Shown in pieces: positions 48,503-52,571 of a DNA stretch of 60,116 nucleotides; position 1 is the first letter of the stretch, and each line of letters begins with the position of its first letter. A program made the translations under genes and the position numbers. The stretch spans positions 1 to 60,116 of the forward strand of contig JAFQBN010000025.1 of the NCBI GenBank assembly GCA_017416685.1. Direction: 5' to 3'. The stretch is from Oscillospiraceae bacterium (GTDB taxonomy: Bacteria > Bacillota > Clostridia > Oscillospirales > Oscillospiraceae). The notes below the pieces were generated by a model, which ran no database searches, was not told the DNA's origin, and was given only the letters and a program-made list of their open reading frames with translations.

Positions 48503-48608
48503 GTACATTTCCTCATATTTCATCTTTCTCCGCCGCAAAAACTTTTTCCTATGCTTGCCGGGGCATTTGTGGTACAATAATGTATCTTACTTTTGGGAGG
48601 TGATGACC

Positions 48609-51239
48609 TTGCGGCAATTGGTAGTCGGTATGCTGGCCCACGTGGATGCGGGTAAAACGACCCTGTCCGAAGCCATGCTCTACCGGGGCGGTGCCATCAA
48701 AAAACTGGGCCGGGTAGACCATCGGGACGCGTTCCTGGACACCGACCATATCGAGCGCGAGCGGGGCATCACCATCTTCTCCAAGCAGGCACTGCTCCCC
48801 CTGCCTGAGGTGAACCTCACCCTGCTGGACACCCCGGGTCACGTGGACTTCTCCACCGAAACCGAGCGTGCTTTGCAGGTGCTGGACTGTGCAGTACTGG
48901 TCATCAGCGGCACCGACGGAGTACAGGGACACACACGCACCCTGTGGTCGCTGCTGCGGCGGTATGGGGTCCCCACCCTGATTTTCGTCAACAAGATGGA
49001 CCTGGCGGTCGGTCGGCAGCAGATCTTGATGGAGCAGCTGCGCGCCCAGCTGGACGACGGATGCGTGGACTTCTCCGCGACCGCCGAACAGCTTCATGAG
49101 CAGGCCGCCATGTGTGCAGACGATGCGCTGGACGAGTTTTTATCCTCCGGCGCCCTGACAGAGAAAACGCTGCGCAGTCTGGTCTCCCGCCGAAAGATGT
49201 TCCCCTGCCTGTTCGGCTCTGCCCTGAAGCTGGATGGAGTAGACCAACTGCTGGATGCCCTGACCCGTTTCGCCCCCCGCCCGGAGCGCGGCACGGAGTT
49301 TGCCGCCCGGGTGTTCAAAATCACCCGGGATCATCAGGGAAATCGTCTGACCTGGCTGAAGGTCACCGGCGGTACGCTCCGCGCTAAAATGCTGCTGTCC
49401 GGCGGTTCGGGTGACGACCGCTGGGAGGAAAAGGCGGACCAGCTGCGGCTGTATTCCGGCGCCAAATTCTCCGCCGTCGATACGGCGCAGGCCGGTGCCG
49501 TGTGCGCAGTCACGGGCCTGACCCGCACCAGGCCCGGTCAGGGTCTCGGCGGGGAGCAAAATGCTCTGCTGCCCATTCTCGAACCCGTACTGACCTGTCA
49601 GCTGATTTTGCCCGAGGGGTGCGACCCACACGCGGCAATGGGCAAGCTGGCCCAACTGGAGGAGGAAGACCCTCAGCTGCACATCGTATGGAATCAGCTG
49701 CTGCGGCAGGTCCACATTCAGCTCATGGGTCAGGTACAGCTTGAGGTGCTGGGCCGGGTCATTGCCGAGCGCTTCGGCATGGAGGTCGCTTTCGGCCCGG
49801 GCAGCATTCTGTATAAAGAAACCATCGCCAATACCGTGGAGGGCATCGGCCACTTCGAGCCGCTGCGCCATTACGCGGAAGTGCGCCTGCTGCTGGAACC
49901 CGGCCAGCCGGGCAGCGGTCTGCACTTCGACTCCGCCTGCCCCACCGATGCGCTGGAGCTGAACTGGCAGCGGCTGGTGCTGACTCATTTGGCTGAGAAG
50001 GAGCATATTGGTGTCCTGACCGGCGCGCCCATTACCGATATGAAGATCACCCTCATCGCGGGCCGCGCCCACAACAAGCACACCGAAGGCGGCGACTTCC
50101 GTCAGGCCACTTACCGGGCCGTCCGCCACGGCCTGATGCAGGCTGAAAATGTTCTGCTGGAACCGTGGTACACATTCCGTCTGGACCTGCCCGCCGACTG
50201 TGTGGGCCGGGCTATGACCGACATTCAGAATATGGGCGGCGACTTCGATCCCCCGGAAACCGGCGACGAGCTGACCGTGCTGACCGGACGGGCCCCGGTG
50301 GCCGGTCTGCAGGATTACCCCCGGCAGGTCACCGCCTACACCCGGGGCAAGGGCCGGCTGAGCTGTCAGCCTGCGGGCTACCGCCCCTGTGCCGATCAGG
50401 AAGCGATCATGGATGCTGCCGGCTACGATCCCCTGCGGGATACCGCCAACCCCGCCGATTCGGTATTCTGCTCCCACGGGGCGGGTGTGGTCATCCCTTG
50501 GCAGCAGGTGGCCGACCACGCCCACACGGAAAGTCCCCTTGAAAAAAACGCTCCCGCAGAGGACGCGGCTTCCACCCCCGCGGGTGGCCGCTCCGACCGC
50601 TACACCGGCAGTCTGGAGCAGGACAAGCAGCTTTTGGAAATTTTCGAGCGCACTTACGGCAAGGTGGAGACCAAGTCCTTTGAACCCACCAAAAAGCCGG
50701 CCCGGACAAGCCTTTCCGACAAGGAATATACGTTCACCCCTCAAAAGACCGGGCCGGAGTACCTGCTGGTGGACGGCTATAACGTCATCTTCGCATGGGA
50801 GGACCTGAAAGCCATCGCCCAACAGGACGTTGCCGCTGCCCGGGCGGCGCTGTGCGACCTGCTGGCCGACTACCGGGGCGCAAAGCAGTGCGAAGTCATC
50901 CTCGTTTTCGATGCGTACAAGGTCAAGGGCAATCCCGGCTCCGTGGAAAAAATAAACGGTATCAGCGTAGTCTACACCAAAGAGGCCCAGACCGCCGATG
51001 CCTACATTGAGAAGGCCACCTATGATTTGAGCCGTGACCACCGGGTCCGTGTGGCCACTTCCGACGCGCTGGAGCAGCTCATCATTTTGGGTCACGGCGC
51101 TCTGCGCATTTCCGCCCGGGTGTTCCGGGAAGAAGTAGAGCAGACCCGGGTGGAGATCAGCCGTATTTTGTCCCTGCGAAATGGACAAAATCTCCGCAGT
51201 GTCCGCGTAGCAGATGCCGCCCGCATCAAAAAACCATAA
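48609..51239 (+). CDS. TetM-like translational GTPase fused to a Rae1/YacP-type NYN endonuclease domain
   Basis: An 876-residue fusion. Residues 1-650 are an EF-G-like GTPase of the ribosomal-protection type: P-loop AHVDAGKTT at 10-18, switch II DTPGHVDF from 74, NKMD at 128-131, domain IV with GRAHNKHTEGGDFRQATYRA, and an EF-G domain V. Residues 655-715 are a linker rich in Pro, Thr and charge. Residues 717-876 are a NYN/PIN domain very similar to Bacillus YacP (Rae1), which cuts mRNA in the ribosomal A site: VDGYNVIFAW, LVFDAYKVKG, TADAYIEK, VATSDALEQ. TTG is preferred as start (GGGAGGTGA at six bases). Resistance to tetracycline is not implied. Confidence 0.93.
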   Translation: MRQLVVGMLAHVDAGKTTLSEAMLYRGGAIKKLGRVDHRDAFLDTDHIERERGITIFSKQALLPLPEVNLTLLDTPGHVDFSTETERALQVLDCAVLVISGTDGVQGHTRTLWSLLRRYGVPTLIFVNKMDLAVGRQQILMEQLRAQLDDGCVDFSATAEQLHEQAAMCADDALDEFLSSGALTEKTLRSLVSRRKMFPCLFGSALKLDGVDQLLDALTRFAPRPERGTEFAARVFKITRDHQGNRLTWLKVTGGTLRAKMLLSGGSGDDRWEEKADQLRLYSGAKFSAVDTAQAGAVCAVTGLTRTRPGQGLGGEQNALLPILEPVLTCQLILPEGCDPHAAMGKLAQLEEEDPQLHIVWNQLLRQVHIQLMGQVQLEVLGRVIAERFGMEVAFGPGSILYKETIANTVEGIGHFEPLRHYAEVRLLLEPGQPGSGLHFDSACPTDALELNWQRLVLTHLAEKEHIGVLTGAPITDMKITLIAGRAHNKHTEGGDFRQATYRAVRHGLMQAENVLLEPWYTFRLDLPADCVGRAMTDIQNMGGDFDPPETGDELTVLTGRAPVAGLQDYPRQVTAYTRGKGRLSCQPAGYRPCADQEAIMDAAGYDPLRDTANPADSVFCSHGAGVVIPWQQVADHAHTESPLEKNAPAEDAASTPAGGRSDRYTGSLEQDKQLLEIFERTYGKVETKSFEPTKKPARTSLSDKEYTFTPQKTGPEYLLVDGYNVIFAWEDLKAIAQQDVAAARAALCDLLADYRGAKQCEVILVFDAYKVKGNPGSVEKINGISVVYTKEAQTADAYIEKATYDLSRDHRVRVATSDALEQLIILGHGALRISARVFREEVEQTRVEISRILSLRNGQNLRSVRVADAARIKKP

Positions 51240-51305: not shown

Positions 51306-51377
51306 ATCGTGTCGGGATTGTTTCCCCCAAATTTTACAGCCTTCCGGACGGACAGGCTGTCAAGGAGTTGTTCCGTT

Positions 51378-52571
51378 ATGAGCCGTATGATTGGTACTGT
51401 TTCCCGCGGCGTCCGCGCCCCCATTATCCGCGCCGGCGATGATCTGGCCCAGATCGTCACCAACTGCGTGCTGGAGGCTGCCGCCGACGACGGCTTTGCC
51501 ATTCGTGACCGCGACGTCGTCGCCATTACCGAGTCCATCGTGGCCCGGGTCCAGGGCAACTACGTCAGCGTGGACGACATTGCTGCCGATGTGCGCGCCA
51601 AGTTTGGCGGCGAGACTGTGGGCGTTATTTTCCCCATCCTCAGCCGCAACCGTTTCTCCATCTGCCTGCGCGGTATCGCCAAGGGCTGCAAGAAGATCGT
51701 GCTGATGCTGTCCTACCCCTCTGACGAGGTGGGCAACCATCTGGTCAGCCTGGACGCCGTGGACGCCGCCGGCGTAAATCCCTACAGCGATGTTCTGACT
51801 CTGGACAAGTACCGCGCCCTGTTCGGCTATGAGAAGCACCCCTTCACCGGAGTGGACTACGTAGAGTACTACGAGCAGCTGATCCGCGAGTGCGGCGCCG
51901 ATGTGGAGATCATCTTCGCCAACGACCCCCGCGCCGTGCTGAACTACACCAAGAACGTCCTCAACTGCGACATCCACACCCGCGAGCGCACCAAGCGTTT
52001 GCTGCGCGCCGCCGGTGCCGAGATCGTCTTCGGCATGGACGAGATCATGAGCGCCCCCATCGGTAACAGCGGCTGGAACGCCAAGTACGGCCTGCTGGGT
52101 TCCAACAAGGCCACCGAGGATCAGGTCAAGCTGTTCCCCCGTGAATGTCAGGATCTGGTGGAGGACATTCAAAAGCGCCTGCTGGCCGCCACCGGCAAGC
52201 GTGTGGAAGTCATGGTCTACGGCGACGGTGCTTTCAAGGATCCCGTGGGCAAGATTTGGGAGCTGGCCGACCCCGTGGTCTCCCCCGCCTACACCGCCGG
52301 TCTGGAGGGTACGCCCAACGAGCTGAAGCTGAAGTATCTGGCTGACAACGAGTTTGCCGCTCTGTCCGGCGAGGCTTTGAAGGATGCCATCAAGCAGAAG
52401 ATCCAGGAGAAGGACGACGATCTGGTGGGCAACATGGTGTCCGAGGGTACCACCCCCCGCCGCCTGACTGACCTGATCGGTTCTCTGTGCGACCTGACCT
52501 CCGGCTCCGGTGACAAGGGTACTCCCTTCGTCTATATCCAGGGCTACTTCGATAACTACACCACGGAATAA
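51378..52571 (+). CDS. CofE-like (F420:gamma-glutamyl ligase family) protein
   Basis: A 397-residue protein of the F420_ligase family, whose archaeal and actinobacterial members add glutamate to coenzyme F420. DRDVVAITESIVARVQGNYV near residue 45 is the family N-terminal site, and MVYGDGAFKDPVGKIWELADP near residue 275 holds the metal/GTP-binding acidic residues. It is about 150 residues longer than CofE. No F420 synthesis gene is nearby, and gut Clostridia are not known to make F420, so it probably glutamylates another acceptor. AAGGAG precedes the ATG; a terminator follows. Confidence 0.82.
   Translation: MSRMIGTVSRGVRAPIIRAGDDLAQIVTNCVLEAAADDGFAIRDRDVVAITESIVARVQGNYVSVDDIAADVRAKFGGETVGVIFPILSRNRFSICLRGIAKGCKKIVLMLSYPSDEVGNHLVSLDAVDAAGVNPYSDVLTLDKYRALFGYEKHPFTGVDYVEYYEQLIRECGADVEIIFANDPRAVLNYTKNVLNCDIHTRERTKRLLRAAGAEIVFGMDEIMSAPIGNSGWNAKYGLLGSNKATEDQVKLFPRECQDLVEDIQKRLLAATGKRVEVMVYGDGAFKDPVGKIWELADPVVSPAYTAGLEGTPNELKLKYLADNEFAALSGEALKDAIKQKIQEKDDDLVGNMVSEGTTPRRLTDLIGSLCDLTSGSGDKGTPFVYIQGYFDNYTTE

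Follow-up and report, generated by a model that had tools for sequence, protein, structure and literature searches.

A Tet/EF-G-type GTPase joined to a Rae1-type nuclease domain in Clostridia: a candidate factor for mRNA cleavage on stalled ribosomes

The closest systems described are Tet proteins of ten Clostridiales species, which acquired a YacP-like NYN domain according to the consulted sections of Atkinson 2015 (PMC4342817); these sections suggest an RNase action in resistance, name RNase activity on rRNA as testable, and quote the first proposal made for NYN domains, a role in rRNA and tRNA maturation. The stand-alone YacP protein of Bacillus subtilis, Rae1, is described in the consulted part of PMC6613710 as cutting mRNA in the ribosomal A site. 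Here we analyse a gene in a window of 60,116 nucleotides (the whole stretch of DNA that was studied, contig JAFQBN010000025.1 of the Oscillospiraceae assembly GCA_017416685.1), in which a single uninterrupted frame on the plus strand (48609..51239; 876 aa plus stop) joins a Tet/EF-G-type GTPase to a Rae1-type NYN domain. Rae1 was reportedly described in 2017, later than the fused Tet proteins.

The Pfam order of this clostridial protein, with a Tet/EF-G-type GTPase ahead of a YacP-like NYN domain, matches the architecture of Atkinson 2015, and as far as the consulted sections go the proteins treated there, which have the same domain order and come from Clostridiales, very likely belong to the same family, although that paper classes them as Tet proteins and conjectures a role in resistance or in the cutting of rRNA. 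Another relative, from Monoglobus pectinilyticus (locus L258), shows 55.6% identity over the GTPase query and has the NYN domain, but its NCBI name, 'translation factor GTPase family protein', omits the nuclease. No later study of the fusion was found in the literature searched beyond PMC4342817. The architecture is already known; its single origin, the replacement of Rae1, the loss of a terminal motif and a linker motif, all treated below, were not found in the parts of the literature searched.

An earlier note, made from the letters of the window, had proposed a TetM-type GTPase fused in one frame to a Rae1/YacP domain, and both the frame and the boundaries given for the two halves agree with the Pfam domains. 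Residues are numbered from the TTG at 48609, the Pfam positions having been computed from the ATG at 48603 and renumbered by -2, and all features lie on the plus strand. The GTPase (G) domain (GTP_EFTU PF00009; 48621..49277, residues 5-223, 167.7 bits) carries the motifs AHVDAGKTT, RGITI, DTPGH and NKMD. It is followed by EF-G domain II (EF-G_D2 PF22042; 49299..49529, residues 231-307; 27.8 bits, cut-off 27), domain III (EFG_III PF14492; 49644..49796, residues 346-396; 24.1 bits, below the cut-off of 27), domain IV (EFG_IV PF03764; 49803..50144, residues 399-512) and domain V (EFG_C PF00679; 50151..50399, residues 515-597), and by a family-specific tail, SVFCSHGAG...W (50400..50528, residues 598-640), which is common to the unfused GTPases. 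A variable linker of about 75 aa (50529..50756, residues 641-716) leads to the NYN_YacP domain (PF05991; 50763..51167, residues 719-853; 159.7 bits, cut-off 24.6). The TTG at 48609 is best read as the start codon, because the putative Shine-Dalgarno sequence GGAGGTGAT (48596..48604, read directly), 4 nt before the TTG, runs into the ATG at 48603, and because the family consensus in the fusion alignment starts MKKLVIGILAHVD; the corresponding residues of the fusion are M(TTG)RQLVVGMLAHVD. A minus-strand open reading frame within the gene (49140-51188, 682 aa) has no Pfam match and was rejected as coding.

The NYN domain of the fusion matched the B. subtilis YacP/Rae1 structures (PDB 5mq8 and 5mq9) with an E value of 1.9e-22, and its acids D722, D768, D797, E801 and D819 correspond, counted along the alignment, to D7, D53, D81, E85 and D104 of Rae1. 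These acids are kept in 33/33 fusions and 16/16 stand-alone proteins, and the active-site acids also in a separate set of 28/28 aligned fusions, which goes against the possibility, raised in the earlier note, that they are unconserved in homologues; the signatures VDGYN, LVFDAY, TADAYIEK and VATSD that it had read in the nuclease half, and HTEGGDF of domain IV, are all present in the translation. The fusion thus shares the NYN_YacP fold family and its acids with B. subtilis Rae1, which differs in being a free protein of about 170 aa that ends in an arginine motif and has no GTPase attached. This motif, [LF]E.[LIMWY]R, was found at the C-terminus of 26/30 stand-alone Rae1 proteins and 0/42 fusions, and a looser pattern in 29/30 and 1/42 (L096); 12 IFVDGYN rows had been added to the stand-alone set, outside which stand L068 (ending LEKIRR) and L073 (ending LQKIRK), and the NYN set is without L126 (a contig-cut fusion), L120, L121 and L122 (repeats of L066, L071 and L088) and L257, which was not recognised. 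Residue 166 of B. subtilis Rae1 is the last arginine of the motif. The change R166P belongs to a set of rae1 mutations that suppress an efp mutant, and the authors interpret this set as loss of function (PMC6613710, consulted part). On the simple reading the arginine tail would assist free Rae1 at the ribosome, a part that the GTPase would take over in the fusion; another reading is that R166P acts through misfolding.

The distribution of the two forms was followed in a class sample of 391 genomes, with the architecture assigned from frames. An NYN match was found in 249 of them, and a fused-type GTPase in 141, of which 140 have the NYN match; the remaining one (G458) is cut by a contig end, and three others (G380, G645 and G544) lie in broken frames. 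The fusion substitutes for stand-alone Rae1, and the two nearly exclude each other: a stand-alone YacP occurs in 1/140 fused genomes against 109/250 others, counts that are far from even, though they ignore the relatedness of the genomes. The one fused genome with a stand-alone gene is G647, while G463, G525 and G564 have a second match below the cut-off only. Both states occur within families f46 and f47: eight of their genomes (G437, G580, G611, G679, G384, G411, G438 and G504) have stand-alone frames of 169-174 aa and no GTPase match of family strength, and seven with full-length fusions (G350, G383, G459, G481, G523, G351 and G460) have no stand-alone match. An NYN domain without a family GTPase was found in 94 genomes, for which frames were partly listed, so that some, such as G505, are perhaps contig-cut fusions. 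With its fusion and a stand-alone YacP in the usual neighbourhood (L116-L117), G647 offers a natural test of whether the two have differing jobs.

The history fits a single fusion event. In a GTPase tree rooted on four Tet proteins, made by a quick method and with a long branch to Tet, the unfused GTPases branch first and the 43 fused rows come out as a single clade (support 100), its sister being an unfused pair from the window's order (G098 and G140, support 98). In a 54-row tree with an EF-G-like root the fused rows hold together at 93 and the unfused ones at 50, which makes the unity of the fused clade more certain than the order in which the basal branches split. The 54-row tree is without L255, L256 and L263, which were not recognised, the Tet-rooted tree without L256, L272, L273 and L281, likewise not recognised, and without the EF-G row, and the unfused L243, with a broken frame, was left out of the GTPase trees. 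The NYN tree needs three label changes; a constraint that unites its 42 fused rows is not rejected (p-AU 0.69), and neither is one that adds the stand-alone NYN of G565 to them (p-AU 0.86). In this genome the GTPase is unfused, and a stand-alone NYN protein, which retains the terminal motif and clusters with the fused NYN domains, is encoded at another place, not in the usual operon (L122, L252). The arrangement is perhaps a pre-fusion state or a relic, and was seen in this one genome. The unfused sister pair (L238 and L239, of G140 and G098 respectively) comes from genomes without a YacP match. The most distant family GTPase, L271 (E 6.8e-51), is the first family branch in the Tet-rooted tree, lacks the SVFC tail pattern and comes from a genome (G1058) without YacP.

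Conservation is uneven along the protein. Mean pairwise identity in 51 fusions is 76.9% in domain IV, 61.9% in the G domain, 60.5% in the NYN domain and 25.2% in the linker (alignment A4, the window and 50 of 71 complete frames; alignments A1 and A3 hold 25 and 26 rows, and 28 of 29 fusion loci were taken in, L103 being the exception). Domain IV is the A-site arm of EF-G-type factors, and its place as the most conserved region of the family points to a specific A-site task. Among 65 family rows, 43 fused and 22 unfused, DTPGH was found in 43/43 and 21/22, the P-loop pattern in 41/43 and 22/22, and the tail pattern S.F[CS] in 40/43 and 21/22, respectively. The linker carries one conserved stretch, DKQLLEIFERTYG (50622..50660; family consensus DKEL..IFERTYG), of which five columns are conserved at 90% or more in the 51 fusions; a pattern search found it in 30/51 and 16/28 fusions and in 0/22 unfused GTPases, whose sequences end before it. 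The motif sits mid-way in the otherwise variable linker and may anchor on the GTPase or the ribosome.

We consider it about an even chance that the protein is a chromosomal housekeeping factor, in which the GTPase delivers a Rae1-type endonuclease that cuts mRNA on stalled ribosomes; housekeeping is preferred over mobile resistance because no conserved neighbourhood was found in 93 fused loci. For this function we infer ribosome binding, GTP dependence, cleavage in the A site, a stall as trigger and a fixed order of steps. The GTP-bound, EF-G-like body would bind to a stalled ribosome at the factor site, and domain IV would enter or clear the A site; GTP hydrolysis would then let the GTPase body withdraw, and the NYN domain, on its tether of about 75 residues, would reach the exposed A-site mRNA and cut it, so that the cut mRNA and the ribosome would pass to decay and tmRNA rescue. 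The cut mRNA could be handled in this host, since its genome has a tmRNA (156.4 bits, over the cut-off) and a full-length MutS2. A more detailed version is put forward tentatively: a GTP-powered nuclease in a single polypeptide, whose GTPase empties a stalled or drug-blocked A site and whose NYN domain cuts the A-site codon to give a tmRNA substrate, would have arisen by one fusion and displaced free Rae1 in many clostridial families, the docking tail becoming dispensable and the linker anchor DKEL..IFERTYG being gained. How Rae1 enters the A site is in our judgement unsettled, and its natural fusion to a GTPase of the type that enters the A site suggests that GTP can actively drive this entry. 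The fusion replaces free Rae1 in many Clostridia families and offers one protein in which to test this, and if the reading is true it would correct a resistance-like 'Tet' label on a probable core gene of many gut bacteria.

Several observations weigh against the proposal of a GTPase-delivered nuclease. Domain IV and the NYN domain cannot occupy one A site together, so that action in two steps must be assumed. Divergent fusions vary in the NYN domain: among nine fused rows added after the count of acids in 33 fusions, L255 and L279 read DAYN and E801 is replaced in L280. The GTPase occurs unfused in 23 genomes of the class sample (two of them, G570 and G702, assigned unfused from their genus), and since eight of these have no YacP, next to 15 with a stand-alone one, it has some job without the nuclease; where the genes are separate, their co-presence is weak (Fisher p 0.045, without correction). 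The near-exclusion of the two YacP forms, too, counts related genomes as if they were independent. Given the weak co-presence, a functional link between separate GTPase and YacP genes was dropped as a candidate. The three divergent proteins L255, L279 and L280, all of family f27, with DAYN for DGYN or without the conserved glutamate, perhaps have an altered nuclease activity.

A different though unlikely role is that of a ribosome-maturation factor, the GTPase remodelling or checking new subunits and the NYN domain trimming rRNA or tRNA precursors. In G582 and G647 the stand-alone YacP gene has SpoU-methylase, RNase III-domain and sigma-factor genes as its neighbours, a context which we take to be like the YacP neighbourhood of B. 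subtilis, and the methylase and RNase III neighbours would suit maturation; rlmB-type and RNase III-domain genes were not among the neighbours of the window's fusion. The original proposal of rRNA and tRNA maturation for the NYN domain (PMC4342817, consulted sections) likewise favours such a role, but the retained Rae1 core belongs to an enzyme described as an A-site mRNA cutter (PMC6613710, consulted part), and the most conserved part of the fusion is the A-site arm, domain IV.

Still less probable is that the NYN domain cuts mRNA outside the A site, on the entry side or between collided ribosomes, with the GTPase holding the factor site. The long variable tether would allow this, the loss of the terminal Rae1 motif is consistent with it, and it would avoid the difficulty that domain IV and the NYN domain are unable to share one A site. 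Against it stands the full-length MutS2 of the genome, which would overlap with such a protein in clearing collisions, and Rae1 itself is described as acting in the A site (PMC6613710, consulted part).

Protection of the ribosome against tetracycline or another antibiotic, with the RNase as part of resistance as Atkinson 2015 suggests, appears very improbable from the comparison with Tet proteins. Tet(M) and Tet(O) resemble the fusion in being five-domain, EF-G-like GTPases of similar length with an AHVDAGKTT start, but have another loop III, another C-terminus and no nuclease. The GTPase of the fusion is 25-29% identical to Tet(M), Tet(O), Tet(S) and a Tet mosaic, and 40-48% identical to the seven unfused relatives compared. 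Its nearest curated model is the NCBIfam tet_protect, which speaks for kinship with resistance proteins, but the score of 386.5 bits misses the cut-off of 775 (Tet(M) 877.4, an unfused relative 456.4), and it also stays below the cut-off of the EF-G model TIGR00484 (262.9 against 659.4 bits). The term 'TetM-like' used in the earlier note is therefore right for the fold and a distant kinship and too strong for the identity and the model scores. The domain IV loop KHTEGGDFR (50076..50102, residues 490-498) aligns with the Tet loop III stretch PVSTPADFR, and as the earlier note had remarked for this protein, the Tet loop is replaced: STPADFR was found in 0/65 family rows against 4/4 Tet rows, with HT.GGD instead in 65/65, and the C-terminal PRRPN helix in 0/65 against 4/4. 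Tet(M) is known to need both loop III and the C-terminal extension in some measure, and yet with the triple change S508A P509A V510A in the loop it can remain active (both from the consulted part of PMC4750697), so the other loop is compatible with drug release and does not exclude it. With the Tet cut-off, loop III and the PRRPN helix all missed, tetracycline release by the fusion is unlikely, and the view of the earlier note that this is not a resistance determinant is the likelier one; the gene was moreover present in all same-genus genomes searched, and the 93 loci have no conserved or mobile neighbourhood. By these alignments the GTPase is a family of its own outside Tet, with unfused members in Clostridia and other Bacillota, which share the HT.GGD loop and SVFC tail but stop after the tail, in frames of 645-729 aa without NYN. 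Plasmid-borne resistance was rejected: in 30 of 1,299 matching plasmid records, taken at even steps, Monoglobus reached 55.6% and the rest listed at most 31.4%. A defence system was rejected as well, PADLOC giving only LeoA, at 17.4 bits, on the GTPase.

An EF-G-like accessory translocase or back-translocase, with the nuclease a passenger or acting on tRNA, would suit the GTPases that occur without NYN (23 of 391 genomes, eight without any YacP) but is very unlikely, as the NYN acids are kept over wide divergence and the domain has not diverged faster than the G domain (mean identity 60.5% and 61.9%, respectively).

The fusion recurs at all levels sampled. In its own genome (1.86 Mb, 38 contigs, 98.9% complete) it is the single NYN_YacP match, and an NYN match was found in 36/36 other genomes of the genus, in open frames of at least 827 aa in 32 of them; the other four frames (749, 684, 447 and 222 aa) have coordinates within 1.8 kb of a contig end. 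At the level of the order, 101/295 genomes match, and in 95 of the 101 the open frame that holds the best match is at least 833 aa long, the other six frames measuring 478, 465, 462, 269, 160 and 78 aa. The survey of homologues for domain order that the earlier note had called for was made on 80 named loci, the best among at least 593, including Anaerostipes, Intestinimonas, Pseudoflavonifractor, Flavonifractor, Dysosmobacter, Mediterraneibacter and Herbinix, and found a complete fused frame in 71. Judged by the nearest of these loci, the host is probably a gut bacterium of the Oscillospiraceae type. Seven of the 80 are contig-cut (L161, L164, L174, L179, L189, L211 and L216), L232 (711 aa) fits neither of the two patterns, and L234 (888 aa) is without the P-loop pattern used. 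Recurrence in the genus, order and 80-locus samples rules out a chance frame or the sequencing artefact that the earlier note had allowed for. One genome (G460) carries two diverged complete fusions from different branches of the fused clade (L118-L119), in an assembly that is 61% complete and may be mixed.

In the class sample the frames, among the matches listed, are mostly of about 850-960 aa or about 170-215 aa, and some cut frames have intermediate lengths. Family GTPases were sought with domains IV, V and the tail (alignment A3): fused GTPases mostly gave E values below 1e-98, frames of 645-729 aa about 1e-87 to 1e-109, and EF-G-like matches 1e-20 to 1e-32, while divergent fusions (f27 and G464) gave 1e-70 to 1e-82, yet have the NYN domain in the same frame. 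A phylum sample held the family at E 1e-50 or better in 30/398 genomes, eight of them already in the earlier samples; the 22 newly found comprise 15 fused-size frames and seven unfused. An NYN search in 20 of the 22 confirmed 13 fusions, and found a stand-alone YacP in four of the seven unfused genomes (G893, G917, G1005 and G1028) and none in the other three.

The genes around the fusion vary between genomes. Across the 93 fused loci the widest recurrent cluster, which we read as an ABC transporter, occurs in 12, at varied positions, and the varied neighbours rule out a mobile or operon context. In the window, DUF1836 and DegV genes lie upstream on the opposite strand; an F420-0:gamma-glutamyl ligase-family gene (51309-52571, plus strand) lies directly downstream, where a class IV aminotransferase gene is also found.

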